A DNA stretch of 64,000 bases. Source: Maribacter polysiphoniae (lineage in GTDB: Bacteria; Bacteroidota; Bacteroidia; Flavobacteriales; Flavobacteriaceae). The position numbers and the translations under genes were made by a program. The stretch is taken from contig NZ_QGGQ01000010.1 in assembly GCF_003148665.1 (NCBI RefSeq), positions 124,001 through 188,000 of the forward strand. Direction: 5' to 3'. Below, in pieces: positions 18,858-53,824 of the stretch; position 1 is the first letter of the stretch; every line of letters starts with the position of its first letter. Under the pieces are notes generated by a model that did no database searches, was not told the DNA's origin, and was given only the letters and a program-made list of their open reading frames with translations.

Positions 18858-18872
18858 TAAAAGTTGGGTAAC

Positions 18873-20216: not shown

Positions 20217-20235
20217 GGGTTTGTTATAGCATTGT

Positions 20236-22512: not shown

Positions 22513-24084
22513 TTACGAAAGTAATATGTAGATAAGAATGGTTAAAAATACCAAGATCGAACCAGCGATATTAACGGCGGACCATGATTTTTCATGAGTT
22601 GTTTTTTCTTTGTAAACTTCCACCTTTTCAGTTGTACTGTATCTGGAAACCAGGAACATAATGATAAAGTTCAACACAAATTCAATGCCCCATAAATGGA
22701 CAAAATGTATGTTGATTTCCAAAACGAAGGTGGTCAGTATATAAAATGTAAATCCGAAAAACAATCCGGCTTTTGCCCCTTTGGTGTTGATTTGCTTAAA
22801 AAATATGCCCGCAATGATGATGGATGAAATGGGAATAAAGAAAATACCGTTCAATTCCTGTAGCAGCATATACAAGCCATCAGGTGCATAGGCCACAAAA
22901 GGGGCTACGATAATGGCTATGGCAGCTAAAATAACCGAAGATAATTTCCCGTACTTCACCAGTTTGGCATCCGAGGCATCCTTGTCGATTATTTTTTTGT
23001 AAATGTCCAGACAAAATATGGTACTGGCTGAGTTTAAGACACTGTTGAAGGTACTTAGGACCGCACCTAAAATGATGGCAGCAAAAAAACCATACAAATA
23101 GGTGGGTAAAACCTTCTTTACGAGTAGAGGATAGATTAAATCGGGGGTTTCATAATATTGGTCCTGAAAATAATAGAAGGCAATAAGGCCTGGGAGTACA
23201 ATGATTATGGGTACGAATAATTTCAATACCCCAGTGTAGATCAAACCTTTTTGCGCCTCAACAAGATTTTTGGCGCCAAAAGCCCGCTGTATGATGGACT
23301 GGTTCATACCCCAGAAATATAACTGATTGATCATCAACCCAGTGAACAATACGGAAAAAGGCAATACAGAGTCCGGTTTACCTATAATGTCGAATTTGGC
23401 CGGGGCAAAATTGTAGACGGTACTCAATCCATTGAAGATATCCCCATTTCCAATTTGATAGAGCGCTATGGCAGGAATGAGTAAACCTCCCAACATCAAA
23501 CCCACACCGTTCAGCGAATCGGAATAAGCAATGGCCTTTAATCCACCAAATACGGCATAAAACGCACCGATGACACCAATGGTGAGTACGGTATACACTA
23601 AGGATGCTTCATTTGAAATACCGAACATGTGTGAGAAGTCAAAGACACTTTCAATATTGATGGCCCCAGAATACAAAACAATGGGTAATAAGGTAATCAC
23701 AAAGGATGACATGAGTAAAAATGCCACTATGGAACGAATGGCGCCATCAAAACGTTTCTCCAAAAATTCGGGAATGGTCGTTAGTCCCATTTTCAGGAAC
23801 TTGGGAATAAAGAATATGGCGGCAATTACCAAGGCAATCGCCGAAGTTACCTCCCATGCGATGACAATGATACCGTTCTCGTAGGAACTGCCATTCATTC
23901 CGATCAAATGCTCGGTAGAAATGTTGGTAAGTATCATGGAGCCCGCAATAATGGGTCCCGTAAGACTCTTTCCTGCCAGGAAATAACCTTCCGATGTAGT
24001 AAACTTATCTTTTCGAAGCTTATAGCTCGTGTAAAATATAACAAGTAGCGTAAAGCCGAAAAAACCCAAATAAGTATATAACAT
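22513..24084 (-). CDS. Sodium/solute symporter (SSS family)
   Basis: A 523-residue polytopic inner-membrane transporter of the SSS/SLC5 family with about 13-14 helices. The head SEGYFLAGKSLTGPIIAGSM and TNISTEHLIGMNGSSYENG are typical of the family, and STFNSVLNSASTIFCLDIYK near residue 350 is the sodium-binding signature of helix 8. It would bring in the product of the locus with Na+; its place as last gene of the SDR-uxuA-miox operon, 27 bases after the inositol oxygenase gene, suggests myo-inositol or a uronate as cargo. SSS members include inositol, sialic acid and sugar-acid carriers, so the exact substrate is open. Confidence 0.9.
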   Translation of the reverse strand: MLYTYLGFFGFTLLVIFYTSYKLRKDKFTTSEGYFLAGKSLTGPIIAGSMILTNISTEHLIGMNGSSYENGIIVIAWEVTSAIALVIAAIFFIPKFLKMGLTTIPEFLEKRFDGAIRSIVAFLLMSSFVITLLPIVLYSGAINIESVFDFSHMFGISNEASLVYTVLTIGVIGAFYAVFGGLKAIAYSDSLNGVGLMLGGLLIPAIALYQIGNGDIFNGLSTVYNFAPAKFDIIGKPDSVLPFSVLFTGLMINQLYFWGMNQSIIQRAFGAKNLVEAQKGLIYTGVLKLFVPIIIVLPGLIAFYYFQDQYYETPDLIYPLLVKKVLPTYLYGFFAAIILGAVLSTFNSVLNSASTIFCLDIYKKIIDKDASDAKLVKYGKLSSVILAAIAIIVAPFVAYAPDGLYMLLQELNGIFFIPISSIIIAGIFFKQINTKGAKAGLFFGFTFYILTTFVLEINIHFVHLWGIEFVLNFIIMFLVSRYSTTEKVEVYKEKTTHEKSWSAVNIAGSILVFLTILIYILLS

Positions 24085-24111
24085 AGAAAAGGTGGTTTGG
24101 TTGGTTTTTGA

Positions 24112-24984
24112 TTAAAATTTTATGACATCGGGTAAGTATTTTTTTACCAATTCCTCGTAGTAGGGCCTAAGGGCCTTAACATCGGGTTTTACAGGAGCTT
24201 TGGTATATAGGTCGTAGGGATTGAACTTTTTGACCCACTCGAACACCTCGAGGTCCTTTTCATTCATTAAATGGGTATAGGCCCCTTCGCGATGCTGGGC
24301 ATAAAAAGAATGATATCGTATGATGTACAAGGCAGGTTCCGGCAAATAATCCTTTAGGATTTGATACAGGTACTCGTCATGTCCCCAGCTCATTTTCACT
24401 TGGTCCAATCCGCAATTGGGCTCGTATATACCGAATTTAGTATTGAATTTCTCATTGGTGGAATCGGGGTTGTCCGCAAAAAATTCAGGATACACAATGG
24501 TCTCGGAGAATTTGCACCCTACCGGGAAGGTATCGCCCACAACCGCCCATTGCGGTTCGCCGAAAAGACACAAAACCTTGCCGATATCGTGTAAGAACCC
24601 TGTAAGTACAAACCAGTCTGGATGCCCATCGGCCCTAATGGCCTCCGAAGTTTGCAATAAGTGTTGCAATTGGTCCAGGTCAATATCGGGGTCACTATCG
24701 TCAACCAAGGTGTTCAGGAAATCCACCGCTTCCCAAAGCGACATTTCCTTCTTGTCAAATTTTAAAAATTCCTTTTCTTTTTGGCAGACGAAATCATAGG
24801 TTTGGAAGCGATGGTTAACCCTATAAAATTCCCGAACCGTATCTACACGTTCTGAATCCACATAATTTCTAAACTCCTCCTTATCCTTGGTCATATCACT
24901 AGGGTCAGGATAGCGTTCCTTAAGGTTGTCTTCCCAATCGTCCAAATTTTGCATGGGATTGTTTTGGTCTGTTGAATTTTTCAT
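24112..24984 (-). CDS. myo-Inositol oxygenase
   Basis: A 290-residue di-iron oxygenase of the MIOX family (HD-domain fold), converting myo-inositol and O2 to D-glucuronate in the cytoplasm. All six iron ligands of the known mammalian enzyme can be matched: His in ADGHPDW (121), HD in GFLHDIGKV (132-133), His in SWGHDEY (202), His in IRYHSFY (225) and Asp in NPYDLYT (258). Length and the NHRFQTYDFV head agree with eukaryotic MIOX, which is uncommon in bacteria, so its origin by transfer is possible. A TTG at 25002 is in frame, but ATG at 24984 is preferred. It follows uxuA after 18 bases and precedes the symporter, so product glucuronate would enter the uronate pathway beside it. Confidence 0.93.
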   Translation of the reverse strand: MKNSTDQNNPMQNLDDWEDNLKERYPDPSDMTKDKEEFRNYVDSERVDTVREFYRVNHRFQTYDFVCQKEKEFLKFDKKEMSLWEAVDFLNTLVDDSDPDIDLDQLQHLLQTSEAIRADGHPDWFVLTGFLHDIGKVLCLFGEPQWAVVGDTFPVGCKFSETIVYPEFFADNPDSTNEKFNTKFGIYEPNCGLDQVKMSWGHDEYLYQILKDYLPEPALYIIRYHSFYAQHREGAYTHLMNEKDLEVFEWVKKFNPYDLYTKAPVKPDVKALRPYYEELVKKYLPDVIKF

Positions 24985-25002
24985 AAGCCTGAGGTTTTCC
25001 AA

Positions 25003-26190
25003 TTAAAGTGTCAATGATTTTCTAATGCCTAATTCCAAACCACGTATTTCGGCCAAACCGCGTAAACGGCCTATTCCGGAATAACCTGGATTGGTCTTTT
25101 TATGTAAGTCATCGAGCATTTGATGCCCGTGATCAGGACGCATGGGAATACTGATATCTATACGTCCTTCCTTCTTTCTTCGAGTTTGTTCAATAAGAAT
25201 TTCCTTTACAACGGTATACATGTCTACATCCCCTTCCAAATGATTGGCTTCGTAAAAATTACCTTCCTCATCGCGTTGTGTGCTACGCAAGTGAATAAAA
25301 TGTACCCTGTCTGCAAACCTCTTGAAAATATGGACCAGATTGTTTTCAGGAATTACCCCTAAGGAACCTGTACAAAAAGTTATGCCATTGGATAAACTGG
25401 GCACTTGCCCAAATATATATGCATAATCGGATTCTGTACTGACTACACGGGGTAGGCCAAGGATTTGATAAGGGGGGTCATCGGGATGAATACACATGAG
25501 TACCCTGTTTTTTTCAGCAACAGGGATAATTTCCTTTAGGAAAGATACTAAATGCTCTTTTAATTTTGTCCCATTGATACCGGAATACGTGTTAAGGATA
25601 TCCTGGAACTGTTCTAAAGTGTACCCTTCCTCGGCACCGGGCAATCCCGCGATGATGTTATTAATTAATTTGGTTTTTTCCTCAGAGGACAAACCATTGA
25701 TATATGCTTTTGCCTTGGTCTTTTGGTCTTCGGTATAGTTGTTTTCGGCACCTGGTCGTTGTAATAGGTACAGTTCAAAGCCAGCAAATGCAATTACATC
25801 AAAACGTAGGGCCTTTGAGCCATCCTGTACTTCATAGTCCAAGGAAGTCCTTGTCCAATCCAATACGGGCATAAAATTATAACACACGATCTGTATATCA
25901 CAATGCGCAAGGTTTTCAATACTTTTTTTATAGTTTTCAATATAAAGTTTGTAATCCCCCGTTTGGGTTTTAATGTCCTCATGGACCGGAATAGATTCAA
26001 CAACGGACCATGATAATCCGGCATTTTCTATTTCCTTTTTCCGTTTATTGATTTCTTCTAGTGACCATATTTCACCGTTGGGAATATGGTGTAAGGCACT
26101 GACCACTCCCGTGGCACCGGCTTGTTTTATATCTTGTAAGGAAACGGGGTCATTGGGACCGTACCATCTCCAGGTTTGTTGCATTGTCAT
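25003..26190 (-). CDS. uxuA: D-mannonate dehydratase
   Basis: A 395-residue UxuA-type dehydratase turning D-mannonate into 2-keto-3-deoxygluconate. [20 protein letters not shown] is the diagnostic head; [18 protein letters not shown] holds the metal-binding Asp/His, and [19 protein letters not shown] with [11 protein letters not shown] are further family motifs around the Mn2+ site. Length matches E. coli UxuA (394). It follows the SDR fructuronate reductase by 17 bases and precedes inositol oxygenase, making a short pathway: inositol to glucuronate, (isomerase elsewhere), fructuronate to mannonate to KDG. Confidence 0.96.
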
Positions 26191-26207
26191 TTTAAGAGTG
26201 TTATTAA

Positions 26208-27020
26208 TTATACGCCACTAAAAGCACTGAACCCACCATCAATCGGAATAACCACTCCTGTAATGAATTTTGCGGCATCACTACATAAAAAATGAATGGC
26301 ACCGTTTAGTTCGTCGGCCTCCCCAAAACGTTTCATAGGGGTGTTCTTTATAATGGTATTGCCACGTTCCGTATACGACCCATCGTCATTGGTCAATAGT
26401 TTCCGATTTTGGTTTCCGATAAAAAATCCAGGGGCAATGGCATTCACACGTATCTTACCCCCGAATTTCGTGGCCATTTCAACGGCCATCCATCGGGTAA
26501 AATTTTCCATGGCTGCCTTGGAGGCCGAATAACCAACAACACGGGTAATCGCACGCTCTACGGTCATTGAGGAATAATTGACAATGGAGCCTTCTTTTTG
26601 TTGGGCCATAACTTCCCCAAAAACCATGGAGGGTAATACGGTACCATTTAAATTAAGGTCGGTTACTTTCTGAAAATCATCAATGTTCAAATCAAAAATG
26701 GTTTGGTCTGGCCCAATGGTGGCGCCGGGCATATTGCCACCTGCTGCATTCAAAAGAATATCGATCTTACTGAATCGGGAAAGTATTTCATCCCTGTTTT
26801 TTTCCAATGTAGCCTTGTCCAGGACATTGGTGACAAGTCCCATGGCTTCACCACCATTGTCAATAAGGGTATTGACTTTCGCAGCTATGATTTTCTCGTC
26901 CCTATCCAAAATCACGATTTTAACTCCTGCTTCGGCTAAATTGTCTGCGATACATCCTCCTAGGACTCCAGCCCCTCCGGTTATTACCGCTACTTTGTCT
27001 TTAATATTGAATTGACCCAT
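26208..27020 (-). CDS. SDR-family D-mannonate oxidoreductase (fructuronate reductase)
   Basis: A 270-residue short-chain dehydrogenase. [17 protein letters not shown] is the nucleotide-binding turn, LLNAAGGN the NNAG-type motif, SMTVERA and YSASKAA the Ser and Tyr-xxx-Lys catalytic residues. The family and its place directly before uxuA indicate the SDR-type fructuronate reductase that interconverts D-fructuronate and D-mannonate, replacing the classical UxuB of E. coli. It is the first gene of the minus-strand Unit B, 102 bases behind the shared regulatory site. No glucuronate isomerase (uxaC) is visible in the window, so that step must be encoded elsewhere. Confidence 0.88.
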
Positions 27021-27068
27021 AATGGATTTAAGTTTTGATCTTTACGAATTATAAAATTTCCATGTTCA

Positions 27069-27122
27069 CGAATATATGATCTGTTCGTTCTAAGGGAATG
27101 GATATACTACCCAAAAGCATGG
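27069..27122 (-). promoter_or_regulatory. Shared regulator site plus -7 box, copy 2 (Unit B)
   Basis: Read on the minus strand: CCATG (27122-27118), CCATT (27101-27097), 21 bases apart, sharing CCATGCTTTTG with copy 1, then 20 bases and TATATTCG (27076-27069), one mismatch from TAnnTTTG. Spacing is identical to the copies before Unit A and susC, although the strand is opposite, which rules out a simple tandem duplication. Confidence 0.72.
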
Positions 27123-27250
27123 ATATATTTGTCAACGTTCCATTATCATCTGTTGCGTTATTAAGGATAATTAGGGAAAAATATTAAATAATATCCAATA
27201 TTTAAGCAAAACTTTTGCGGTATTTAAATTATGAGATTTGAATGGTCTTT

Positions 27251-27304
27251 CCATGTTTTTGAATGAAAAATCCATCTTGAAAAGGATTGACTGTTCTAAT
27301 TTTA
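27251..27304 (+). promoter_or_regulatory. Shared regulator site plus -7 box, copy 3 (susC, Unit C)
   Basis: CCATG (27251-27255) and CCATC (27272-27276), 21 bases apart, inner string TTTTTGAATGA nearly the same as copy 1, then 20 bases and TAATTTTA (27297-27304). It lies 58-111 bases before the susC ATG. Within the 341-base divergent spacer (27021-27361), copies 2 and 3 face outward to the two operons. Confidence 0.75.
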
Positions 27305-27361
27305 ACAAAACATTAATATCTATTAGGAATAATCACATTTTTTAAACTAAACTCATTTAAA

Positions 27362-30304
27362 ATGGAAAAACTTAAACTATTATTAATTGTCTTGTTCATT
27401 GGCATTTCTTCAAATGCTTTTGCACAAGCAACACCTGTCTCCGGGGTTGTTGTAGATGATCAAGGTATTGCCTTGCCCGGAGCCAATGTTTTGGAAAAGG
27501 GCACCACAAATGGTGTGGTAACCGATTTTGATGGGAATTTCACTATTTCTGTTGAGGATGCCAATGCTACGTTATCCGTATCATATATCGGATTTGAAAC
27601 CAAGGAAATTAAATTGGATGGTTCGCAGAGCTACTCCGTACAATTAGCTACGGCTTCGACTGGTTTGGATGAAGTTGTGGTCATTGGTTATGGAGGTGTA
27701 AAATCAAAAGATTTAACAGGTTCTGTTAAAGTAATTAGCTCCAAAGATTTCAATAAAGGTGTTTCTAATTCACCAGGACAATTACTACAAGGTAAGATGG
27801 CAGGTGTTAATGTAACGACAAGTTCTGGTGAACCTGGAAGTGCAGTGGATATCAATATTCGAGGGGTTAGTTCGGTAGGTAGTTCCAGTAATCCATTGTA
27901 TGTGGTAGATGGTGTTCCTTTGGATGGAGGGTCTTCTAATTCTAGCGGTCTTGAAGGTGTTGGGGGAACTTCAAGGTCGAAAAGCCCTTTAAACTTTATG
28001 AATCCCCAGGATATAGAAAGTATTACTGTTTTAAAAGATGCCTCAGCTACTGCAATTTACGGTACAAGAGCATCCAATGGAGTCGTGCTTATACAGACAA
28101 AAAAAGGAAAAGTAGGCAAGGCAAAGGTAACCTTTAGTACATCAACAGGGTTTTCTTCAGTCGCTAGGGATGTTGATGTACTAAGTGCTAGTGAATATAA
28201 AGAACAAACTGCGCGTTTGGCACCATTAGTAGGTAGAGATGCCAATGATTATGTTGATGCTTCGAATGCCAACACAAATTGGCAAGATGAGATTTATCAA
28301 ACAGCCTTAATGAACAATTACAATTTAGGGATTTCTGGCGGAGCTGGTACAACTACATATAATGTATCATTGGGTTATCTTGATCAAGAAGGTGTAGTGA
28401 AAACAACGGAGCATGAAAAAGTAACGGGAAGATTCAATGTAGGTACGTCTGTATTGGATGATCGATTGAAATTCCAGGCTAACCTGACGGTAGCAAATCT
28501 TACAGATGAAAGTCAAGCTTTGGGAAATTTAATTACTGGGTCACTTAGAGCCAATCCAACAGGTGCTGTTTATGGCCCTGATGGTGAAGTTACTACACTG
28601 GCAGGTGCAACGGACAACCCTGTGGCACTTTTTGACTTATATCGTGATAGAGCCGAAAGCAAAAAGATTTTAGCCAACTTTACTACTACGTATACTATTG
28701 TTGAAGGCTTGGATTATAAGTTGAACTTGGCTTACGAAAATGCAGATACTGATCGTATGATACGGGTTTATAATAATGCAGAGGATGGAGGGTCTTATGA
28801 TACCGATCAGATTGTTAAGAATTCGAATGAGGATTCAAACGTGTTGATAGAGAATTTCCTTACTTATTCTAAAAGCTATGATAAATGGAATTTTGATGCG
28901 CTTGCAGGGCATTCGTATCAGACTTTCAACAATACAAGTTTAAGGATTAAAGGGGAGGATTTTTCTACCTATGAAATAGACCCTATTTATAATTTAGGGA
29001 TTGTGGATGGGACTACTACAATACAATCAGGTGATTCTGAAAGAAAATTACAATCGTTCTATGGAAGGCTTAATGCTAATTTCTTAGATAGATATCTCGT
29101 AACCGCATCGTTTAGGGCAGACGGATCTTCAGTATTTGGTGAGAACAATAAATATGGTTATTTCCCTGCAGTCGGATTAGGATGGAAAATAAATGAGGAA
29201 GCGTTTCTTGCAGATTCTGATGTGTTTTCCAATTTGAAATTAAGACTAGGTTGGGGGCAAACAGGTAACCAAGCAGTTCCTGTAAGGGTTACGCAAGCCT
29301 CATTTGAGACTAGCGTCGATAATAGTTATACATTTAATGGAACAACGGTAGTTAATGGTGTTACTTCAACACGAACACCTAACCCGGATTTAAAATGGGA
29401 AGTTACTGAACAATACAATATAGGGCTGGATTGGACTATATTGAATGGTAAAGTTAGCGGTACGTTTGACTATTTTAATAAAAGCACTACCGATTTATTT
29501 TTACAAGTTTCTTCACCGGTTCCTTCCTTGACCAATAGTATTTATGTAAACTCAGACGCAGAAATCATTAATAAAGGTTATGAATTTGCGTTAAATGTAA
29601 ATGCTATTAGAACAGATGATTTTTCACTTGATTTTTCAGGTAATATATCATTCTTGGATAATAACATTAAAGGACTTTCGACAGATGTGTATGTTGGAAA
29701 TATTTCTGGTCCCGGAACATCAGGAGAGACCAGTAGTATTTTTACCAATGGTCAATCTGCAGGTTCATTTTATTTACCTAGATTTCAAGGGTACGATAGC
29801 GATGGTGTAGAAATACTCTCAGAAGAATCAGAAATAGTAGGAGATGCATTGCCAAATACCATTTATGGATTTAATATTAATGCATCATATAAAGCCTTTG
29901 ATTTAGCATTGAATTTTAATGGAGTAGGTGGAGTGGATATTTTTAATAATACGGCAAGGGCTTATTCCAGTGCAGCTTCTTTGGGGCAAAATGGGAATAA
30001 TATTTTTAGGGAATACCTTGATGTTGAAGAAAGCCCCCTTGCTGCACCTGCTTCTTCATCTAAATACATTGAAGATGGGTCGTTTTTTAGATTGAACAAC
30101 GCCACATTGGGTTGGAATGTCAAAAGCAAGAGTTTTCTCGACAGTCTAAGATTATATCTTACAGGACAAAACCTTTTTGTGATAACGGACTATTCAGGAT
30201 ATGATCCTGAGGTTAATACAGGCGGAGGTAATGTATATGGTGTTGACTTTGGCGGTTATCCTCGTCCTAGAACTATCATTTTAGGACTTGACCTTTCTTT
30301 CTAA
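27362..30304 (+). CDS. SusC/RagA-family TonB-dependent outer-membrane transporter
   Basis: A 980-residue SusC-like protein. Signal peptide to about residue 22 (SSNAFAQ), a carboxypeptidase-like CarbD domain about 25-100 (VSGVVVDDQGIALPGANV), the SusC-type junction DEVVVIGYG near 105, the plug (about 110-230, with NIRGVSSVGSSSNPLYVVDG and LKDASATAIYGTRASNGVV), then the 22-strand beta barrel ending in a terminal aromatic (LGLDLSF). It imports oligosaccharides captured by the SusD partner, using TonB energy. First gene of Unit C behind the shared regulatory site, 21 bases ahead of susD. The length is on the short side of SusC (about 1000), which is normal for this subgroup. Confidence 0.96.
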   Translation: MEKLKLLLIVLFIGISSNAFAQATPVSGVVVDDQGIALPGANVLEKGTTNGVVTDFDGNFTISVEDANATLSVSYIGFETKEIKLDGSQSYSVQLATASTGLDEVVVIGYGGVKSKDLTGSVKVISSKDFNKGVSNSPGQLLQGKMAGVNVTTSSGEPGSAVDINIRGVSSVGSSSNPLYVVDGVPLDGGSSNSSGLEGVGGTSRSKSPLNFMNPQDIESITVLKDASATAIYGTRASNGVVLIQTKKGKVGKAKVTFSTSTGFSSVARDVDVLSASEYKEQTARLAPLVGRDANDYVDASNANTNWQDEIYQTALMNNYNLGISGGAGTTTYNVSLGYLDQEGVVKTTEHEKVTGRFNVGTSVLDDRLKFQANLTVANLTDESQALGNLITGSLRANPTGAVYGPDGEVTTLAGATDNPVALFDLYRDRAESKKILANFTTTYTIVEGLDYKLNLAYENADTDRMIRVYNNAEDGGSYDTDQIVKNSNEDSNVLIENFLTYSKSYDKWNFDALAGHSYQTFNNTSLRIKGEDFSTYEIDPIYNLGIVDGTTTIQSGDSERKLQSFYGRLNANFLDRYLVTASFRADGSSVFGENNKYGYFPAVGLGWKINEEAFLADSDVFSNLKLRLGWGQTGNQAVPVRVTQASFETSVDNSYTFNGTTVVNGVTSTRTPNPDLKWEVTEQYNIGLDWTILNGKVSGTFDYFNKSTTDLFLQVSSPVPSLTNSIYVNSDAEIINKGYEFALNVNAIRTDDFSLDFSGNISFLDNNIKGLSTDVYVGNISGPGTSGETSSIFTNGQSAGSFYLPRFQGYDSDGVEILSEESEIVGDALPNTIYGFNINASYKAFDLALNFNGVGGVDIFNNTARAYSSAASLGQNGNNIFREYLDVEESPLAAPASSSKYIEDGSFFRLNNATLGWNVKSKSFLDSLRLYLTGQNLFVITDYSGYDPEVNTGGGNVYGVDFGGYPRPRTIILGLDLSF

Positions 30305-30325
30305 TAAAAAATATAATATAATATT

Positions 30326-31957: not shown

Positions 31958-31986
31958 GTTGAGTTGTTAGTTTGAGTTAGTTTACA

Positions 31987-32030
31987 AATACAGGCAGGTA
32001 TGAAAACCTGCCTGTATTCTATTGCTTTTT
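31987..32030 (+). terminator. Hairpin/attenuator after susD
   Basis: Perfect 13-base arms AATACAGGCAGGT (31987-31999) and ACCTGCCTGTATT (32006-32018) with a 6-base loop, followed a few bases on by a T-run (ctttttta). It lies 30 bases after the susD stop and 46 before the next start, so it may partly stop transcription and set the susCD to enzyme ratio. Confidence 0.8.
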
Positions 32031-32075
32031 TATTACTAAAAAGCGTTGAATTACCAGTCAAATCTTGAGACCGTT

Positions 32076-36454: not shown

Positions 36455-36457
36455 ATT

Positions 36458-37762: not shown

Positions 37763-37788
37763 TAAGAACGAAATCAAAATATAAGTAA

Positions 37789-40344
37789 ATGATGATGAGA
37801 TGCTTATGTGTTTTTATGATAGGGATATTACCATTATTTGGATTTTCCCAAACGGGATATTCCTTTAATAATCCTGAACTTCCCATTGAAGAGCGGGTTC
37901 AGGATTTAGTGGATCGATTAACCGTAGAAGAAAAAGTATCCCTATTGATATCCACAGCGAAAGCGATTCCTAGATTGGATATCGAAAAGTATTATCACGG
38001 TAACGAAGCCTTGCACGGTGTGGTAAAGGGAGGGCGTTTTACGGTATTTCCACAGGCCATAGCGCTTTCAGCCACTTGGAATCCCGATTTGATCTATAAA
38101 GTTTCAACCGCTATTTCCGATGAGGCCAGGGCCAAATGGAACTTCTATAACCAAGGGAAGGACCAAAAGAACGTATACAGTGATTTGTTGACATTTTGGT
38201 CGCCAACGGTCAATATGGCCAGGGATCCCCGTTGGGGACGTACCCCTGAAACTTATGGGGAAGACCCGTATTTAACAAGCCGCATAGGTCTATCCTTTGT
38301 AAAGGGCCTACAGGGCGATGATGATAAATATCTTAAGGTGGTGTCTACACCTAAACATTTTGTGGCCAATAACCAAGAGGAGAATCGATTTTCGTACAAC
38401 GCCAAGGTCTCTGAGAGGGCACTTCGTGAATATTACTTCCCGGCTTACAAAACCCTTATTGAAGAGGGGAATGCACAATCTATAATGAGTGCCTACAATG
38501 CCATTAATGGGGTTCCCAGTACGGCGAATAAATGGCTGTTGAATACGGTATTAAGGGATGAATGGGGGTTTAAGGGGTATGTGGTCAGTGATTGTGGGGC
38601 TCCTACATATATCGAAAAATCGCATCATTTTGTAACCGATAAGGAGCAGGCTGCAAAAGCAGCTTTAGAAGCAGGATTGGATTTGGAGTGCGGAGATGAT
38701 ATCTATGCAAAACATTTACTGCCTGCATACAAAGCAGGTCTTGTATCAATAGAAAGTATCGATAAGGCAGTTTCCAGGGTTTTAAGGGCACGCTTTAAAT
38801 TGGGGGTCTTCGATCCCGAAACAAATAATCCCTATACTAAAATATCGCTGGAGGTAATCGGCTCAAAAGAACATCAGGACCTTGCCTTGGAAACTTCAAG
38901 ACAGTCCATTGTATTGCTTAAAAATGAACGAAACACCTTGCCGTTGAATAGCAATGCGATGACGAAATTGGCTGTGGTAGGTTTTAATGCCAATCAGGTG
39001 GTGTTTGGCGATTATAGTGGATTACCAGTCATTTCACCCATTTCACCCCTTCAAGGTATAATCGATAAGGTAGGGGATAAGGTCGAGGTAAACTATGTCA
39101 AATGGAAAACTGCGGCCCGTAATTTGAATCCCATAGAAGCGGAAAACCTACGAAACGATTTCAATGATGAACCAGGTTTGTTTGCCGAATATTTTGATGA
39201 TAAATTTTTGGAAGGTACGCCCAAGACCCGTGTGGATAAAGAAGTGAATTTTGATCCCGTAAACCAACCTCCCGATCCCTATACCAGCTACAGGCATAAA
39301 TCAATTCGATGGACAGGCCATATAACCCCCAATGCTTCCGGGGCCTATAAAATAGGTATTAATTCAGACGATGGCATTCGTTTATGGTTGAATAATGAGT
39401 TGGTTGTGGATGAATGGCATAATCGGGGTGCTACGACAGATCAAGTGCCTATTTACATGGAAGCCGGTAAAAAATATGCCATAAAATTGGAGTATTTTGA
39501 CAATGGGGGTGATGCCATTTGCCAATTACTTTGGGAAGTACCCGGAAGTACCGATGATTTGTATAAAGAGGATAGGGAGGCGGCCAAGAACAGCGATTAC
39601 GTTATAGCCGTTATGGGAATAAACAAAACCATAGAAAAGGAAGGAAAGGATAGAACGTCATTACAACTTCCGGAGGACCAAGTCAACTATTTAAAGGAAA
39701 TGTATGCCATTAACAAGAATATGATCGTTGTTTTGGTGGCGGGCAGTTCTTTGGCCATCAATTGGATGGATGCGAATATCCCCGCCATTGTAGATGCATG
39801 GTATCCCGGTGAAGCTGGCGGAACCGCCATTGCCGATGTTTTGTTCGGAGACTACAACCCAGCTGGGCGATTACCGTTTACATTTTATAAAACCGTGACC
39901 GATCTTCCCTCAATGGACGATTACGAAATTACCAATGGCAGAACCTATATGTACTTTAAGGGTAAAGTACTGTATCCTTTTGGGTATGGGTTAAGTTATA
40001 CGGAATTTGAGTATAGTGGCATGAAAATCGAAAAGGAAAACGATGGTTTGATGCTTACTGCCACTGTAAAAAACACGGGGGATTTCGATGGTGACGAAGT
40101 AGTACAATTGTACTATAGGATCAAGGAATCATCCGTTATACGGCCTTTGAAAAAACTCATAGGTTTTAAAAGGGTATCCTTAACTAAAGGGGAATCGAAA
40201 ACCATACAGTTCAAGGTATCCAAAAAAGACTTGCGTTTTTGGAATGAACATAACAAGGAATGGACGTTTGAAAAGGGTAAGTATGCCTTTATGCTGGGAG
40301 CCTCTTCGCAGGATATTAGAATTCAAAAAACTAAAAAATTATAG
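37789..40344 (+). CDS. GH3 beta-glycosidase with inserted PA14 domain
   Basis: An 851-residue secreted enzyme. The GH3 barrel starts after the signal peptide with LPIEERVQDLVDRLTVEEKV; KHFVANNQEENR binds substrate, and the nucleophile Asp is in GYVVSDCGAP (about residue 268). The alpha/beta-sandwich domain is split by a PA14 domain (about 464-600: GLFAEYFDDKFLEG, SDDGIRLWLNNELVVDEWH), as in many plant-cell-wall and algal GH3 enzymes, and a Fn3-like domain closes the protein. Activity could be beta-glucosidase, beta-xylosidase or beta-galactosidase-like; the PA14 insertion usually shapes the +1 site for short oligosaccharides. Confidence 0.93.
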   Translation: MMMRCLCVFMIGILPLFGFSQTGYSFNNPELPIEERVQDLVDRLTVEEKVSLLISTAKAIPRLDIEKYYHGNEALHGVVKGGRFTVFPQAIALSATWNPDLIYKVSTAISDEARAKWNFYNQGKDQKNVYSDLLTFWSPTVNMARDPRWGRTPETYGEDPYLTSRIGLSFVKGLQGDDDKYLKVVSTPKHFVANNQEENRFSYNAKVSERALREYYFPAYKTLIEEGNAQSIMSAYNAINGVPSTANKWLLNTVLRDEWGFKGYVVSDCGAPTYIEKSHHFVTDKEQAAKAALEAGLDLECGDDIYAKHLLPAYKAGLVSIESIDKAVSRVLRARFKLGVFDPETNNPYTKISLEVIGSKEHQDLALETSRQSIVLLKNERNTLPLNSNAMTKLAVVGFNANQVVFGDYSGLPVISPISPLQGIIDKVGDKVEVNYVKWKTAARNLNPIEAENLRNDFNDEPGLFAEYFDDKFLEGTPKTRVDKEVNFDPVNQPPDPYTSYRHKSIRWTGHITPNASGAYKIGINSDDGIRLWLNNELVVDEWHNRGATTDQVPIYMEAGKKYAIKLEYFDNGGDAICQLLWEVPGSTDDLYKEDREAAKNSDYVIAVMGINKTIEKEGKDRTSLQLPEDQVNYLKEMYAINKNMIVVLVAGSSLAINWMDANIPAIVDAWYPGEAGGTAIADVLFGDYNPAGRLPFTFYKTVTDLPSMDDYEITNGRTYMYFKGKVLYPFGYGLSYTEFEYSGMKIEKENDGLMLTATVKNTGDFDGDEVVQLYYRIKESSVIRPLKKLIGFKRVSLTKGESKTIQFKVSKKDLRFWNEHNKEWTFEKGKYAFMLGASSQDIRIQKTKKL

Positions 40345-40359
40345 TCATAAACCAGCAAC

Positions 40360-41424
40360 ATGAGAAATATTTATATCTGCTGTTTTATCATAGTCCTCTT
40401 CATTTCTTGTGCCACCAAAGAGTCTGAAATTCAGCTGAATGAAGTCCAAGTGATAGGAAGTCATAATTCATACAAAATCCCAATTGACCCTTCTTTGTGG
40501 GACTATCTATATGAAATGGATTCCGCCAAGGCCATGTCATTGCAATATGGCCATATCCCTTTGACTGAACAATTGGATCTAGGTTTGCGCAATTTGGAAC
40601 TGGATGTCTTTTACGACCCTAAAGGTGGACATTTTATAAACCCTAAAGGTTTGGCGATTGAAAAATCAAAGGGACAAGAACCCTTAACCTTCGATGCAGA
40701 AAATAAACTGGGGCAACCCGGGTTGAAAATGTTCCATATTCAGGATGTTGACTTCCGGAGTCATTATCCCTTATTTAAAGAGGGATTGGAAGCCATCAAG
40801 AATTGGTCCGATAGGCATCCCGATCATACGCCTATATTCATTCTGATGAATACAAAGGATCAAAAAGTTGCGGGAACAAAAGACCCTTTGCCCTTTACCA
40901 AAGAAGCCTTGAATACGATTGATGTAACGATCAAATCCGTTTTTGGGGATGATAAATTAATATCACCCGATAAGGTCCGTGGGGATTTCGATACTTTGGA
41001 GGAAGCCATATTAACCAAGGGTTGGCCTAATCTTAGTGAGGTTAAAGGTCGTTTTTTGTTTGTACTGGATGAAAAAGAAGCGAAAATAAAAAGGTATTTG
41101 GAAGGGCACCCAAGCTTAAAGAACCGCGTGCTTTTTGTGAATAGTAAGGAAGGGAATCCAGTGGCAGCCTTTCGAATTATCAATAACCCAATCAAGGATT
41201 TTGACTACATTCAAGAACTCGTAGCCAAAGGATATATGGTGCGTACTAGGGCAGATGCAGCGACCAAGGAAGCGCGTAACAATGATTATTCGAAATTCGA
41301 AAAGGCTAAGGCTTCAGGTGCCCAGGTTATCTCAACCGATTATTATATCCCTTCGCAATTGTTCAAATCGGATTACAAAGTCATTTTTAAGGATGGTACT
41401 TATGAAAGAATTAAAACCCAATAG
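40360..41424 (+). CDS. Ca2+-dependent phosphoinositide phospholipase C-type lipoprotein
   Basis: A 354-residue lipoprotein (lipobox VLFISC, Cys at residue 17). VIGSHNSYKIPI holds the first catalytic His (35) with Asn 36, GLRNLELDVFYDPKGGH the Ca2+-binding Glu 80 and Asp 82, and LKMFHIQDVDFRS the second His (126); these are the marks of the bacterial Ca2+-dependent PI-PLC family (PF16670-like). It would cut the phosphodiester between inositol and a lipid or other group. In a glycan locus this is unusual and, with inositol oxygenase in the same regulon, points to an inositol-phosphate substrate. It lies 15 bases after GH3 and its stop is followed at once by the GH115 start. Confidence 0.85.
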   Translation: MRNIYICCFIIVLFISCATKESEIQLNEVQVIGSHNSYKIPIDPSLWDYLYEMDSAKAMSLQYGHIPLTEQLDLGLRNLELDVFYDPKGGHFINPKGLAIEKSKGQEPLTFDAENKLGQPGLKMFHIQDVDFRSHYPLFKEGLEAIKNWSDRHPDHTPIFILMNTKDQKVAGTKDPLPFTKEALNTIDVTIKSVFGDDKLISPDKVRGDFDTLEEAILTKGWPNLSEVKGRFLFVLDEKEAKIKRYLEGHPSLKNRVLFVNSKEGNPVAAFRIINNPIKDFDYIQELVAKGYMVRTRADAATKEARNNDYSKFEKAKASGAQVISTDYYIPSQLFKSDYKVIFKDGTYERIKTQ

Positions 41425-41425
41425 G

Positions 41426-44383
41426 ATGTTTTTAAAAACCTTTTCAATGAAAAACACATGGGTACTGTTGCTGTTGTGTGTTCAAGTGAATGCTCAAAGT
41501 GTGTTCGATTTTCCTATCGTATCAGGGTCCACCCAAACCTCTGTGCATATTGATAAGAATGATGCGGAGGTTGTGCAGATTGCCGCACAAATGTTGATTG
41601 ACGACATTCATAACGTGACCGATAAGAAAATCCAGTTGGGGGGCACATCCAAATTTCGGATTATCGCAGGTACTTTAGGTCAAAGCAAGGCCATTGATGG
41701 TTTGGTGAAACAAAAGAAAATCGATGTCTCGGTCATCGCAGGGAAATGGGAGACCTATCACATCCAAGTTTTGGAAAACCCATCAAAGGATATTGAAAAA
41801 GCCCTAGTAATTGTAGGGTCCGATAGAAGGGCCACGGCGTACGGCCTACTTGAAATATCCCGAAAAATAGGGGTTTCCCCATGGGAGTGGTGGGCAGATT
41901 CAGCCCCGGTCAAGAAAGAAAACGTGGTGCTTTCCATAGAAAACAAGACCTATGGATCCCCCTCGGTGAAGTATAGAGGACTATTTCTCAATGATGAGGA
42001 TTGGGGATTACAACGTTGGGCAGCTTTGAACTTTGAGCCGGAAACAGGGGATATTGGGCCAAAGACCTATGCCAAGGTTTTTGAGTTGTTATTGCGGTTA
42101 AGGGCAAATACGATTTGGCCTGCCATGCATAAATGCACCAAAGCCTTTTATCATTATCCTAAAAACAAGGAAGTTGCCGATGCTTATGCCATAGTTGTTG
42201 GTAGTTCACATGCCGAACCCATGTTATGCAATATCAATGCGGAGTGGAATCACGAAAGTATGGGTGAATATCGATATGACACGAATGCGACCTCCATAAA
42301 GGACTTATTCCGGAAAAGAGCGAAGGAAACCCAAAACTACGAAGGTATTTATACCGTTGGAATGCGTGGCGAACACGATTCCCCCATGATCGTAGGGGAG
42401 GATAATACCGGGGCCCAAGTAGATTTATTGGAACAGGTCATTACCGACCAACGTGAAATTTTGAACCGTTATTCTAAAAAGGGGGTGTCAAAGCCCCAAG
42501 CCTTTGTACCGTACAAAGAGGTATTGCATTATTACCAAAGTGGCTTGGAACTGCCCGAGGATATTACCTTGGTTTGGACCGATGACAATTATGGGTATAT
42601 ACGCCAGTTGAGCAATCCCCAAGAGCAGACCCGCTCTGGTGGCGCCGGGGTGTACTACCATACATCGTATTGGGGGAGGCCACACGATTATCTGTGGTTG
42701 AACTCCACCAACCCAGTTTTGATGTGGGAAGAGATGTCAAAGGCGTATGGATTCAAATCGAGGGACTTATGGATTTTGAATTGTGGGGATATAAAACCCC
42801 ATGAATACAATATTGAACTGTTTTTGGATATGGCCTGGAACATGGGAGATTTTGAAAAAAACAATGCTGTGGAAGTGCACCATCAGCAATGGGCCACAAG
42901 GGAATTCGGAAAGGAAAACGCCGCTGCCATTACCAAGATCATGAATGATTATTATAAGTTGGCATTTCAACGAAGACCGGAATTTATGGGGTGGAGTCAA
43001 GTAGAACCGGTAACGAAAGCTGGTAAAACCGAACTAACCCAATTTCACTATGGCGATGAAGTCATGGGTAGGATTAAGGCTTACGAGGCGTTATTGATTA
43101 AAGTAAAGGGCTTACAACCTAGGATTTCAAAAGCACAGCAAGACGCTTTTTATGAATTGGTCTATTATCCTGTGGCCGGAGCTTCCCTCTTAAACCAAAA
43201 ATGGTTATATGCCTATAAAAATCAATTTGTTGCGGACCAAGGAAGGAAAAGTACTTCCTATTTTGCCGACAAATCCAAAGAAGCATTTCAAACAATACAA
43301 GAGGAGACCGAGTATTACAACACTACGTTAAAGGGTGGTAAATGGAATCATATCATGACCATGGCGCCTAGACATTTGCCTGTGTTTTCACAACCCTCGG
43401 TTTCTGCAGTACCCGAATCCGAAAGTGCATCATTGGGATTGGCGTTGGAAAGTTATCAGATGGAGGTCAATAATGAGGTCATTAACAGTTATGCCGATGT
43501 ACTCCCCGTTTTTAACGCTTATACCAAAAACACATATTTTATAGATGTGTTTCTTAAGGGAAAGGGTACTATTTCTTGGGAAGCCAAACCGATGGCAGAT
43601 TGGATACGGATATCAAAAACATCAGGAAACCTCGATGAAGACTACCCGGAAAATCGACTTTGGGTCAGCATTGATTGGGATCGGGTGCCCAAGGGGGAGA
43701 ACAAAAAAGAAGCTCCGTTAGGGCATGACTACCAATTGATCCCGCCAAGTTATAAGGTGAACTCCGCCATTGGTTTTGAAGCCAATGGGGAAAAAACGAC
43801 AATTGGTGTATCGGTATTCAACCCTAAATTCAAAGCGTTGGAGAATTATAAAGGCTTTGTAGAGGATAAGGGCTTCGTCTCAATGAATGCTGAAAACTTT
43901 ACACGAAGGAAAAAAGGATCAGAGGCTGTTTGGGAAACCCTGGAAGGTATTGGGTATACCAATAAGATCTGTTTAGCCTTACCTAGAACGGCGGCATCCC
44001 GTGAAAACCTATCCGATATCATAGCCAACAGTCCGTCTTTGGAATATGATTTTTATACCTTTAATTTTGGGGAGGTGGATGTAAATGTGCAAGCGATTCC
44101 CACACATGCCTTTTATGGGGGAAGCGGGGTAAGGTGTGCCCTTGCCATTGATGATGCAGAACCTGTATTGGTCGATTTTCAAACTTTGGGTCGAAGTGAT
44201 GAATGGAAACAGAATGTATTGAAGAATGCTTCGGTAAAATCCACCAAACAAATTGTTGACAAAGCCGGAAAACATACCTTGAAAATCTGGATGGTAGATC
44301 CAGGGGTGATGCTAGATCAGGTTTTGATCGATCTTGGGGGATGGAAAGACTCATATGCATTTCCGCCAGAAACAAAAATGTAG
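41426..44383 (+). CDS. GH115 alpha-glucuronidase
   Basis: About 985 residues. Start at 41426 (1 base after the previous stop), or ATG at 41447, which gives a clean leader MKNTWVLLLLCVQVNAQ; the in-frame TTG/ATG codons further upstream lie within the phospholipase gene. GH115 features: N-terminal domain ending VGSDRRATAYGLLEISRKIG-VSPWEWWAD, barrel motifs RGLFLNDEDWGLQRWA, LRLRANTIWPAMH, HAEPMLCN, GMRGEHDSPM and WTDDNYGYIRQL, then C-terminal sandwich domains. Known GH115 enzymes remove alpha-1,2-linked (4-O-methyl-)glucuronate, also from internal residues of glucuronoxylan, or from arabinogalactans. Glucuronate released here could join the uronate pathway of Unit B. Confidence 0.93.
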   Translation: MFLKTFSMKNTWVLLLLCVQVNAQSVFDFPIVSGSTQTSVHIDKNDAEVVQIAAQMLIDDIHNVTDKKIQLGGTSKFRIIAGTLGQSKAIDGLVKQKKIDVSVIAGKWETYHIQVLENPSKDIEKALVIVGSDRRATAYGLLEISRKIGVSPWEWWADSAPVKKENVVLSIENKTYGSPSVKYRGLFLNDEDWGLQRWAALNFEPETGDIGPKTYAKVFELLLRLRANTIWPAMHKCTKAFYHYPKNKEVADAYAIVVGSSHAEPMLCNINAEWNHESMGEYRYDTNATSIKDLFRKRAKETQNYEGIYTVGMRGEHDSPMIVGEDNTGAQVDLLEQVITDQREILNRYSKKGVSKPQAFVPYKEVLHYYQSGLELPEDITLVWTDDNYGYIRQLSNPQEQTRSGGAGVYYHTSYWGRPHDYLWLNSTNPVLMWEEMSKAYGFKSRDLWILNCGDIKPHEYNIELFLDMAWNMGDFEKNNAVEVHHQQWATREFGKENAAAITKIMNDYYKLAFQRRPEFMGWSQVEPVTKAGKTELTQFHYGDEVMGRIKAYEALLIKVKGLQPRISKAQQDAFYELVYYPVAGASLLNQKWLYAYKNQFVADQGRKSTSYFADKSKEAFQTIQEETEYYNTTLKGGKWNHIMTMAPRHLPVFSQPSVSAVPESESASLGLALESYQMEVNNEVINSYADVLPVFNAYTKNTYFIDVFLKGKGTISWEAKPMADWIRISKTSGNLDEDYPENRLWVSIDWDRVPKGENKKEAPLGHDYQLIPPSYKVNSAIGFEANGEKTTIGVSVFNPKFKALENYKGFVEDKGFVSMNAENFTRRKKGSEAVWETLEGIGYTNKICLALPRTAASRENLSDIIANSPSLEYDFYTFNFGEVDVNVQAIPTHAFYGGSGVRCALAIDDAEPVLVDFQTLGRSDEWKQNVLKNASVKSTKQIVDKAGKHTLKIWMVDPGVMLDQVLIDLGGWKDSYAFPPETKM

Positions 44384-44397
44384 TCTAAGATGAACAT

Positions 44398-46242
44398 ATG
44401 ATTTTACGCAAGGTAATTTTTGTATTTTTTATTATTTCTTTTTTAGGGTGTAAAGAAGAGCAAAAGTCTTCTGTAAAGGAACTGCAGGTCGCCTTTATGT
44501 CAGATGTGCATTTGCAGGACATTTATGGGTCATTCAAAGACAATGACTATAAAGGTATATTAAATCCACAAACAGGGAAATATACCTTGGCTAGAACCAT
44601 GCAATCACAATTGCAATCTACCCGATTATTCAATGAAAACTATTTTGCTTTCTTGGCTGCTTTGGATGACGTAGTAAAAAGAGGGGTAAAACTAGTGGTT
44701 TTACCGGGTGATTTCAGTGATGATGGTCAAGCTTTCAATATTCGAGGGTTAAGACATGTTTTAGACAACTATACCAAAAATTATGGCATTCGTTTTATCC
44801 TGACGACTGGCAATCATGATCCTGTACGTCCTTTTCGAATGGCTGCGGGGAAAACGGATTTTTTAGGTAAAAATGGCCATTCACAAGCTATTTTTAGTGA
44901 AAAAGGGATGTTTTTACCCAAAAATCATGACGATTTGCCCGTTATTATAACCCAGGATATTGCCAAATTAGGATATGTCGGTATATTGGATGAATTGCAG
45001 GATTTCGGTTTTTTCCCAAAACCAAATGACAGGTATTGGGAATCCCCATTTTCTTCCTATGGCTATGAAAATTATGATTTCAATGAAGCCAAAAAGCAAG
45101 CAACGTTTGAGAACAGAAAATATAGGTCCAATAAAAATGAACCGGATATACCTGATGTCAGTTATTTGGTAGAACCTATTGAAGATGTATGGTTTTTGGC
45201 CATAGATGCCAACATTTATGTACCTAAGCCAGAAGCGGATGCAGACACTGTGGACCCTAAACTTTTTAGTAGTGCGAGCATTGGGTATAATAATTTACTC
45301 TTGCATAAGGCACATTTAATGGATTGGATAAAATCGGTCACCACTAGGGCAGAGGAATTAGGAAAGACCTTGATTGTTTTTAGCCATTATCCCATGTTGG
45401 ATTTTTATGATGGGGCAGGTCCCGATATCGAAGCCTTATTTGGGACAAATAAAATGCAAATGCATCGGATGCCTAGTGAAGAGATTTCCCAAATGTTGAT
45501 AGAAGCCGGGGTAAAAGTACATTTTGGGGGGCATATGCATATGAACGATACCGGACAAAGGTATTTGGAATCAGGAAGCTTGATCAATATACAGATACCC
45601 TCCATGGCTGCCTATGTGCCAGGATATAAATTATTGACGTTAAAAGACAATGATGTTTTTGAAATAGAGACGGTGGTCATCGATAATGTTCCTGATTTTG
45701 ATAGTTTGTTTCCTTTGTATGAAAAGGAATATGGTTATTTGGAACAGGTTAAGGATAGTGCTATTTGGGACAAGGGCATATTGGAAGCCAAAACCTATAA
45801 GGAATTTACAACGTGGCATTTAAATGAATTGGTACGTCTTCGCTTTTTAAAAGAAGATTGGCCCGAAAATTTGAAATTCTTACTTATACGATCTTCGGGA
45901 GAGGACTTACTACGGCTAGCATTTGACCAAGAAGAAGAATATAATGCATTCTACAAACGATTGCAGGAAAAAAATACGGAAATGGCACCATTGGATAGCT
46001 GGACAGGCTTGCATATGATACATGATTTTTATAAAATCAGAAATGCAGATGAATTGGCATTTTCCGATATCGACCAAAAAAGACTGGAAGGGTATAAAGT
46101 CGTATGTCAACAATTGAGGAAATCCAATTATAAGAATTTACGGCTATGGGCCAGTATTTTTATGAAAGTTTGTAATGGGGAACCTTCGGATCATTTTAAG
46201 ATCGATTTGAAGACCGGTAAGATAGAGCGAGTTGTTCCATAA
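44398..46242 (+). CDS. Calcineurin-like metallophosphoesterase lipoprotein
   Basis: A 614-residue lipoprotein (lipobox ISFLGC). All five metallophosphoesterase motifs are present: MSDVHL (D36, H38), VLPGDFSDDG, TTGNHDP, FSHYP and HFGGHMHMND. The C-terminal third (about 430-614) is alpha-helical without recognised domain. It is exported, so it probably removes phosphate from an extracytoplasmic substrate; as last gene of Unit C, 14 bases after GH115 and two genes from a PI-phospholipase C, inositol phosphate or a phosphorylated glycan is a plausible target. That is inference; the family also includes nucleotidases and phosphodiesterases. Confidence 0.88.
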   Translation: MILRKVIFVFFIISFLGCKEEQKSSVKELQVAFMSDVHLQDIYGSFKDNDYKGILNPQTGKYTLARTMQSQLQSTRLFNENYFAFLAALDDVVKRGVKLVVLPGDFSDDGQAFNIRGLRHVLDNYTKNYGIRFILTTGNHDPVRPFRMAAGKTDFLGKNGHSQAIFSEKGMFLPKNHDDLPVIITQDIAKLGYVGILDELQDFGFFPKPNDRYWESPFSSYGYENYDFNEAKKQATFENRKYRSNKNEPDIPDVSYLVEPIEDVWFLAIDANIYVPKPEADADTVDPKLFSSASIGYNNLLLHKAHLMDWIKSVTTRAEELGKTLIVFSHYPMLDFYDGAGPDIEALFGTNKMQMHRMPSEEISQMLIEAGVKVHFGGHMHMNDTGQRYLESGSLINIQIPSMAAYVPGYKLLTLKDNDVFEIETVVIDNVPDFDSLFPLYEKEYGYLEQVKDSAIWDKGILEAKTYKEFTTWHLNELVRLRFLKEDWPENLKFLLIRSSGEDLLRLAFDQEEEYNAFYKRLQEKNTEMAPLDSWTGLHMIHDFYKIRNADELAFSDIDQKRLEGYKVVCQQLRKSNYKNLRLWASIFMKVCNGEPSDHFKIDLKTGKIERVVP

Positions 46243-46271
46243 CATTCGTACCTTGCCACTTCTCGAATGTT
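46241..46271. repeat. Inverted repeat between phosphoesterase and regulator genes
   Basis: AACATTCG (46241-46248) and CGAATGTT (46264-46271), 8-base perfect arms with a 15-base spacer, in the 58-base gap before the hybrid regulator. No T-run follows, so it is not a typical terminator; it could be an operator for the regulator gene or a weak RNA stem. Confidence 0.4.
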
Positions 46272-46300
46272 GTTGCCTTATGTAAGGGTTAAATTCAATT

Positions 46301-50347: not shown

Positions 50348-50391
50348 TTTATTTGAAAGGAAAGCCAGTTAAAAGGGATTGGAATAGCCGG

Positions 50392-53799: not shown

Positions 53800-53824
53800 T
53801 TTACAAAAATAACATTTGGGACGC

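Follow-up and report, generated by a model that had tools for sequence, protein, structure and literature searches.

A candidate utilisation locus for glucuronosylated inositol-phosphate glycolipids in Maribacter polysiphoniae

The polysaccharide utilisation loci (PULs) of Bacteroidota are the described systems closest in layout to a locus that we analysed in the marine bacterium Maribacter polysiphoniae, within a window (the whole stretch of DNA studied) of 64 kb taken from a 5.13 Mb genome in 30 contigs. Like them it has a SusCD pair, exported hydrolases, a hybrid two-component system (HTCS) regulator and a one-strand operon; it differs from them by a phospholipase C (PLC), a phosphoesterase and an inositol oxygenase, and it seems to be aimed at the head group of a membrane lipid and not at a polysaccharide. 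The nearest precedent is BcGIPC-PLC1 of Botrytis cinerea, a phospholipase C reported to act on plant glycosyl inositol phosphoceramides (GIPCs) and to free Man-GlcA-inositol-phosphate from them (PMC11496612). That enzyme is fungal and was picked from putative sphingomyelinases, not from PI-PLC-C1 proteins, and the part of the paper drawn on here describes no downstream set for sugar or inositol catabolism. Among the open PMC papers listed by our searches we found no description of a GIPC utilisation locus, and none turned up with the present gene set; the original prediction likewise knew of no described polysaccharide-use locus of this composition.

We propose that the locus serves the utilisation of glucuronosylated inositol-phosphate glycolipids, most likely GIPCs, and on sequence comparisons we give this a probability of roughly 0.66. 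The broader claim of the original prediction, that the substrate is some glycosylated inositol phosphate, is very probable. It is supported by the joint recurrence of PLC, metallophosphoesterase (MPE), GH92, GH115 and myo-inositol oxygenase (MIOX) genes, by the existence of plain PLC loci that have neither the sugar enzymes nor MIOX, by a GH115 clade particular to these loci, and by variants carrying GH89 with an N-acetyltransferase. The combination of genes is more than chance, since the plus-strand operon lies on one strand with tight gaps, the divergent MIOX operon is compact too, and the set recurs across many genera. GIPCs are called the major sphingolipids on earth in the title of a review cited by PMC9246714. 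A GIPC locus would offer a concrete, testable bacterial route for their use, with enzymes that could help to map GIPC head groups; it would join inositol and glucuronate catabolism through MIOX inside a glycan locus, and tie groups of PI-PLC-C1, GH115 and GH92 proteins to a likely substrate.

Gene content and proposed pathway

Pfam and NCBIfam profile scans resolve two divergent operons, with SSF symporter-MIOX-UxuA-UxuB on the minus strand and, on the plus strand, SusC, SusD, GH115d, GH92, GH29, GH3-PA14, PI-PLC-C1, GH115c, MPE and HTCS in that order, GH115c and GH115d being the two GH115-type proteins. The features are as follows.

22513-24084, minus strand: SSF sodium:solute symporter (PF00474, 196 bits; NF007790, 664 bits against a cut-off of 401)
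24112-25002, minus strand: MIOX, myo-inositol oxygenase, inositol to D-glucuronate (PF05153, 371 bits)
25003-26190, minus strand: UxuA mannonate dehydratase (PF03786, 432 bits; TIGR00695, 593 bits)
26208-27020, minus strand: UxuB-type D-mannonate oxidoreductase of the short-chain dehydrogenase/reductase type (NF006132, 372 bits against a cut-off of 281)
27021-27361, no strand: intergenic region of 341 bp between the operons, a likely control region
27362-30304, plus strand: SusC-like TonB-dependent transporter (PF00593, PF07715, PF13715)
30326-31957, plus strand: SusD-like surface glycan-binding protein, predicted lipoprotein (PF07980, PF14322; Cys after a signal-like N-terminus)
32046-34142, plus strand: GH115d, distant GH115-like protein, predicted lipoprotein (PF15979, 62.9 bits against a cut-off of 27, profile positions 10-327 of 335)
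34139-36454, plus strand: GH92 alpha-mannosidase, predicted lipoprotein (PF07971, 442 bits)
36458-37762, plus strand: GH29 alpha-L-fucosidase, predicted exported (PF01120, 245 bits)
37789-40344, plus strand: GH3 beta-glycosidase with PA14 domain, predicted exported (PF00933, PF01915, PF07691, PF14310)
40360-41424, plus strand: Ca2+-dependent PI-PLC (PI-PLC-C1), predicted lipoprotein (PF16670, 423 bits, profile positions 1-327 of 329)
41426-44383, plus strand: GH115c, canonical alpha-glucuronidase with C-terminal domain, predicted exported (PF15979, 440 bits; PF17829, 156 bits); the open reading frame opens at 41255 and 41426 is the likely start
44398-46242, plus strand: calcineurin-like MPE, predicted lipoprotein (PF00149, 43 bits)
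46301-50347, plus strand: HTCS regulator (Reg_prop, Y_Y_Y, HisKA, HATPase_c, Response_reg, HTH_18)

The tandem SusC/SusD pair at 27362-31957, five carbohydrate-active enzymes on the same strand (GH115 twice, GH92, GH29 and GH3) and the HTCS regulator identify the plus-strand set as a predicted PUL. Its gaps from SusC to the regulator, all on one strand, range from -4 to 88 bp with the GH115c start set at 41426, and those from the symporter to UxuB from 0 to 27 bp. The components that the original prediction had named within 22513-46242 (SusCD, PI-PLC, MPE, MIOX, uronate enzymes, GH92 and GH29) were each recovered by Pfam or NCBIfam profiles; GH3 had been missed, and the GH78 gene that it had counted as a member was rejected, lying outside this interval at 20236-22503 and convergent to the symporter gene. 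The locus continues past 46242 to the HTCS gene and ends at 50347; in a promoter and terminator scan of 46200-50500, promoter-like sites were no more frequent than at shuffle level.

From the gene families, operon layout, recurrence of the unit and GH115 catalytic residues that are observed, we infer the substrates, cellular sites and order of steps that follow. The PLC lipoprotein would cut between phosphate and lipid, the latter proposed to be ceramide, and so free an inositol-phosphate glycan that SusCD would import. GH29 and GH3 would remove fucose and beta-linked sugars at the periphery, and GH92 alpha-mannose, after which GH115c would take alpha-1,2-glucuronate off inositol and GH115d another alpha-sugar. 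The MPE, a proposed inositol-phosphate phosphatase, would then free inositol; the symporter, whose proposed role is the uptake of free myo-inositol or glucuronate, would bring inositol into the cell, and MIOX would convert it to glucuronate. Glucuronate from both sources would pass through UxaC, UxuB and UxuA, and the HTCS would sense an intermediate and switch the set on. UxaC, the remaining glucuronate step, is encoded elsewhere in the same genome and lies near MIOX in related loci of G640 and G452. The N-termini are consistent with this division of labour: lipoprotein-type cysteines in SusD, GH115d, GH92, PLC and MPE, ordinary export signals in GH29, GH3 and GH115c, and no export signal visible by eye in MIOX, UxuA or UxuB.

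In the PLC, residues H35, N36, E80, D82 and H126 are invariant in an alignment of 6 relatives; presumably they comprise the two catalytic histidines and the Ca2+ ligands, an assignment carried over from eukaryotic PI-PLC. Some related PLC reading frames are longer and bear an extra N-terminal part (L063, L078 and L088 with 612-618 aa, L128 with 674 aa; long frames also occur in G588, G701 and G713). In L088 this part is an alpha/beta-hydrolase (BD-FAE-like) domain, making the protein an esterase-phospholipase fusion.

The two GH115-type proteins both match PF15979, as had been claimed, but they are unlike each other, one being canonical and the other a distant relative. GH115c belongs to the family of BtGH115A and BoAgu115A (PDB 5by3 and 4c90), and its D190, R314, D318, K364, E365 and H412, kept in 31 of 31 aligned members, correspond to D206, R328, D332, K374, E375 and H422 of BoAgu115A. 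Mutants of BoAgu115A at D206, R328, D332, E375 and H422 are reported to show strong loss of activity, K374 being only a contact (PMC3879575). In a GH115 tree, 34 rows from PLC loci and 3 from sister loci form one group (SH-aLRT 99; the L066 and G640 rows are identical, and the broken GH115 of G395 and a GH115d-like match of G616 were omitted), separate from 15 further GH115s taken from ten genomes with a PLC. Among these genomes, G000, G608 and G452 hold both an outside GH115 and a member of this group. The GH115c clade is tied to these loci.

GH115d forms a distinct family, with 12 aligned orthologues that are 54-92% identical. All 4 of its sequence matches in the PDB are GH115, and it keeps D202, R331 and H424, with an Asp at the E375 position, where the alignment is uncertain. 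It appears to lack the R-x3-D motif, there being no Asp four residues past R331 in an uncertain alignment and a low-confidence model. Its predicted structure is mediocre (pLDDT 68.9, pTM 0.44); a Foldseek search with this model places GH115 chains at ranks 1-9 with query TM-scores of only 0.33-0.36, followed by GH138, GH84 and GH67. GH115d is probably an alpha-glycosidase of altered specificity.

Recurrence of the unit in related genomes

Relatives of the locus were read in named loci, comprising up to 10 kb on either side of the PLC in the best 80 of 576 confirmed relatives. Since only the best were taken, these loci lean towards PLCs like that of the window, a bias that the Flavobacteriaceae genome samples considered below do not share. 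Glycan-type loci make up 39 of the 80 and plain loci 41, although the sorting used GH92, GH115 and MIOX themselves and the contrast restates that these genes co-occur. Within the 39 glycan-type loci the counts are MPE 36, HTCS 36, GH115c 30, GH92 28, a second GH92 form 17 (either form in 37), MIOX 17, GH115d 15, GH29 15, GH3 11, GH125 8, GH89 7 and acetyltransferase 6, with GH115 of either kind in 34; MIOX and SusCD are undercounted because many loci end at 10 kb. GH115c is the next gene after the PLC in all 30 loci that have it, and the two genes are spaced by 10 bp or less or overlap when measured from the earliest start codon, 25 of the 30 reading as overlaps that later starts may remove. 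The order PLC-(GH115c)-MPE-HTCS is kept in 33 of 39. The recurring unit has enzymes for splitting lipid from phosphate and for dealing with terminal hexose, alpha-GlcA, phosphate and inositol, though not every sister locus is complete. The glycan type occurs in 13 named genera, which are mostly Flavobacteriaceae but include one member each of Marinifilaceae and Prolixibacteraceae.

In the plain SusCD-PI-PLC-MPE loci (Algoriphagus, Zobellia and others) the PLC is homologous, as is the MPE that 23 of the 41 carry; SusC is present in 35 and SusD in 31. They differ in that GH92, GH115 and MIOX are found in none of them within 10 kb on either side, and they probably serve unglycosylated inositol lipids. 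On a PLC tree built by a quick method, the glycan and plain labels need 4 changes compared with 32.8 in shuffles.

PI-PLC-C1 is uncommon, occurring in 29 of 395 Bacteroidota genomes and in 32 of 397 Flavobacteriaceae genomes (31 over the cut-off). The Flavobacteriaceae comparison used 30 strong PLC places in 28 genomes, five PLC matches of at most 63 bits having been dropped, and the 64 MIOX matches of at least 313 bits. At 17 of the 30 PLC places a MIOX is found no more than 25 kb away, and GH92 at the same 17, while the other 13 have no MIOX, GH92 or GH115 (the absence of GH92 was checked by eye on the complete GH92 list), such that MIOX and GH92 are jointly present or jointly absent at every place. 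MIOX-bearing genomes account for 26 of the 30 PLC places, and about 0.4 would be expected within 25 kb by chance against the 17 observed, a figure calculated as if the genomes were independent, although they are not. Seen from the other side, of the 64 strong MIOX places 17 have a PLC nearby. A full GH115 is found at 12 of the 30 places and the divergent GH115d at 8.

GH89 joins the PLC and GH115 in six Flavobacterium loci (L065, L068, L071, L075, L079 and L084) and in G608; the GH89 (NAGLU) match in L079 scores 494 bits. The gene after GH89 matches human heparan-alpha-glucosaminide N-acetyltransferase (HGSNAT, 81 bits), and the same protein scores 160 bits against NagX, below the curated cut-off of 480, with DUF5009 as its only Pfam match, also below cut-off. 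The lysosome uses an HGSNAT-NAGLU type pair to remove GlcN alpha-linked to GlcA. Human heparan sulphate breakdown, in which HGSNAT acts before NAGLU, thus resembles these related loci, though not that of the window, in pairing an acetyltransferase with GH89, and the same GlcN-a1,4-GlcA linkage would be expected; it differs in the GlcA, which here would sit in alpha-linkage on inositol and be dealt with by GH115. Published head groups include a plant GIPC core of GlcNAc(a1-4)GlcA(a1-2)inositol-1-PO4-ceramide (PMC6151786) and Man-GlcA-Ino-P from Arabidopsis (PMC11496612); the latter work also reports that ions, probably of GlcA-inositol and GlcA-inositol-phosphate, build up with an Arabidopsis gmt1 mutant. 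Because GH89 with the acetyltransferase and GH92 match the two published head groups, the locus variants appear to follow the two outer sugars, GlcN(Ac) and Man, with the GlcA-inositol enzymes held constant. No NAGLU was found in the genome to which the window belongs, and its locus is therefore placed with the mannose form of the head group.

A bolder reading, to which we would give even odds, is a modular pathway for living on GIPCs, present in many Flavobacteriaceae and in a few Bacteroidota outside that family. A core of PLC, GH115, phosphoesterase, MIOX and regulator would handle the GlcA-inositol-phosphate hub, with exchangeable modules for the outer sugars: GH92 and GH125 for mannose, GH89 and the acetyltransferase for glucosamine, which by analogy with the human lysosome would be acetylated and then cut, and GH29, GH43 and GH27 for decorations. 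In loci lacking GH115, its place may be taken by a GH28-like enzyme or by a protein family that is still uncharacterised.

GH28-like beta-helix enzymes (such as L066 5935-7560) occur in 16 of the 39 glycan-type loci and also where GH115 is absent (L093, L128, L135, G745 and G021); a role as second uronidase is possible. An exported protein of 598-610 aa that has no Pfam family over cut-off is encoded at L067 7133-8929, L075 297-2129 and L150 12802-14598, and GH115 was not seen near it in L067 and L150. It is possibly a new lyase or hydrolase. For L067, where the protein has 598 residues, we considered a lyase that replaces GH115 but make no such claim, given no Pfam match over cut-off and a model with pLDDT 39.

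Judged by the PLC, Maribacter luteus RZ05 (92% identity) is the nearest named relative among the best 80 of 576. Over the segment that starts with GH115d and ends with the regulator, its genes share 80-96% identity with those of the window. A SusD of the window type (77-87%) is carried by M. ulvicola (L081), Croceivirga (L087) and Algibacter miyuki (L088).

Alternative substrates and points against a GIPC locus

Another inositol-phosphate glycan would make use of much of the same machinery. With glycosylphosphatidylinositol (GPI) anchors (Man3-GlcN-Ins-P), fungal mannosyl-inositol phosphoceramides or actinobacterial phosphatidylinositol mannosides as substrate, the PLC would free the glycan, GH92 and GH125 would take mannose, and the phosphatase would release inositol for MIOX. 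PLC, phosphatase and MIOX suit any of these, GH92 is present in 17 of 17 MIOX-linked loci and GH125 in 8 of 39 glycan-type loci, and the fungal and GPI cores are reported to have Man or GlcN on inositol (PMC6151786). GH89 and the acetyltransferase could also clear GlcN-Ins, and the loci that have no GH115 of either kind (5 of 39 of the glycan type, and G021, G025 and G745) fit as well. These cores are without GlcA, yet one or other GH115 is present in 34 of 39 glycan-type loci and the full GH115 follows the PLC in 30 of 30. We favour a GIPC over GPI, since GH115 would find no GlcA to remove in the GPI core as given in PMC6151786, and we regard the other inositol glycans as an unlikely substrate. 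Less likely still, the main substrate would be an acidic glycan, either a polysaccharide or part of a glycoprotein, that contains GlcA, Man, Fuc and Rha (arabinogalactan protein or algal glucuronomannan, for instance), with PLC and MIOX handling accompanying lipid or GPI anchors. It would suit the closeness of GH115c to BtGH115A among solved structures, with which it shares a Ser at the position of Asp424 of BoAgu115A, as well as the loci of G491 and G508, where sugar enzymes and GH115 stand without lipid and inositol genes. Arabinogalactan loci of Maribacter sp. MAR_2009_72 are likewise reported to hold GH115, GH29 and GH78, although the words inositol and phospholipase have 0 occurrences in the main text of that paper (PMC11036162). 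Such a substrate leaves unexplained why PLC, phosphoesterase and MIOX are mostly inherited together with the sugar enzymes. The locus has none of the endo-enzyme or lyase families that typically cut a backbone, and galactan backbone enzymes such as GH16, GH35 and GH43 are absent among the scanned genes of 22513-50347. With no galactan enzymes inside it, an arabinogalactan locus was rejected and is retained only as a weak rival. A xylan locus was also rejected, as GH10, GH11 and GH30 are absent among the scanned genes of 16002-56303 and the GH115s of the unit form a separate clade. Finally, two unrelated functions might merely be neighbours, with PLC, phosphoesterase and MIOX scavenging inositol phospholipids beside a set for a GlcA/mannose glycan. 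Each half can stand alone, as seen in the plain SusCD-PLC-MPE loci (41 of 80) and in PLC-free loci of sugar enzymes, but the joint presence or absence of MIOX and GH92 at 30 of 30 PLC places and the position of GH115 directly after the PLC in 30 of 30 loci make this very improbable.

Several observations weigh against the proposal of a GIPC locus. Ser occupies the position of BoAgu115A Asp424 in 31 of 31 GH115c members, whereas xylan-active GH115s have Asp; the variant does not exclude the GH115 family, because BtAgu115A also has Ser at the matching place (PMC9063842; positions matched by reading of the alignment). The closest solved structure to GH115c is BtGH115A, described in its title as specific for decorated arabinogalactans, and an arabinogalactan-like substrate is possible on these two grounds. 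The profile match of the MPE is weak (PF00149, 43 bits), GH92, GH29 and GH3 are broad families, and the roles given to GH29 and GH3 are guesses. The SusD of M. luteus (L060 3-1577) is only 25% identical to that of the window (30326-31957). With hydrolases that are 92-96% identical in the two and a SusCD pair that differs in this way, the transporter does not follow the enzymes, and the pair seems to have been exchanged. A search of open PMC papers on algal GIPC found no marine source of the GlcA type.

The distribution of the genes is also uneven. A full GH115 is missing from 5 of the 17 MIOX-linked loci, of which 3 have GH115d and 2 (G399 and G745) neither; the G399 locus is decayed, and the MIOX counted there has two stop codons. 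Among the glycan-type named loci, 5 of 39 have neither GH115 (L067, L089, L093, L128 and L135), L089 being cut by its contig end. G540 has the whole set except the PLC. In G491 and G508 (L145-L148) the stretch read holds GH92-GH89-acetyltransferase-GH115-regulator with no PLC, phosphoesterase or MIOX, and these loci may serve soluble head groups or work with another phospholipase; in G021 (L150) and G025 (L149) it holds GH92, phosphoesterase, regulator and MIOX with no PLC or GH115. The glycan-type PLCs do not form a single clade, since the tree forces a minimum of 2 label changes; with 4 changes against 32.8 in shuffles they are clustered but not monophyletic. In the phylum-wide draw the glycan type accounts for 1 of 28 PLC stretches (L042), and the set is therefore mainly flavobacterial.

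Neighbouring genes in the window

Before the symporter gene in window coordinates, 16002-22503 encodes a TPM-domain protein, a 3-keto-disaccharide hydrolase, a Gfo/Idh oxidoreductase and the GH78 (20236-22503), a set that resembles a 3-keto-glycoside pathway of its own, including a rhamnosidase; the related locus L073 does contain a GH78. Beyond the HTCS gene, a polysaccharide deacetylase, GH9, a NUDIX/AraR-type regulator and GH3 at 50392-56303 form a separate cluster. A PHROGs scan of 62230-62916 gave no match. Near the end of the window, a sulfatase-like frame of 280 aa at 63068-63910 covers only the latter half of the sulfatase profile and is truncated, split or cut by the window end.

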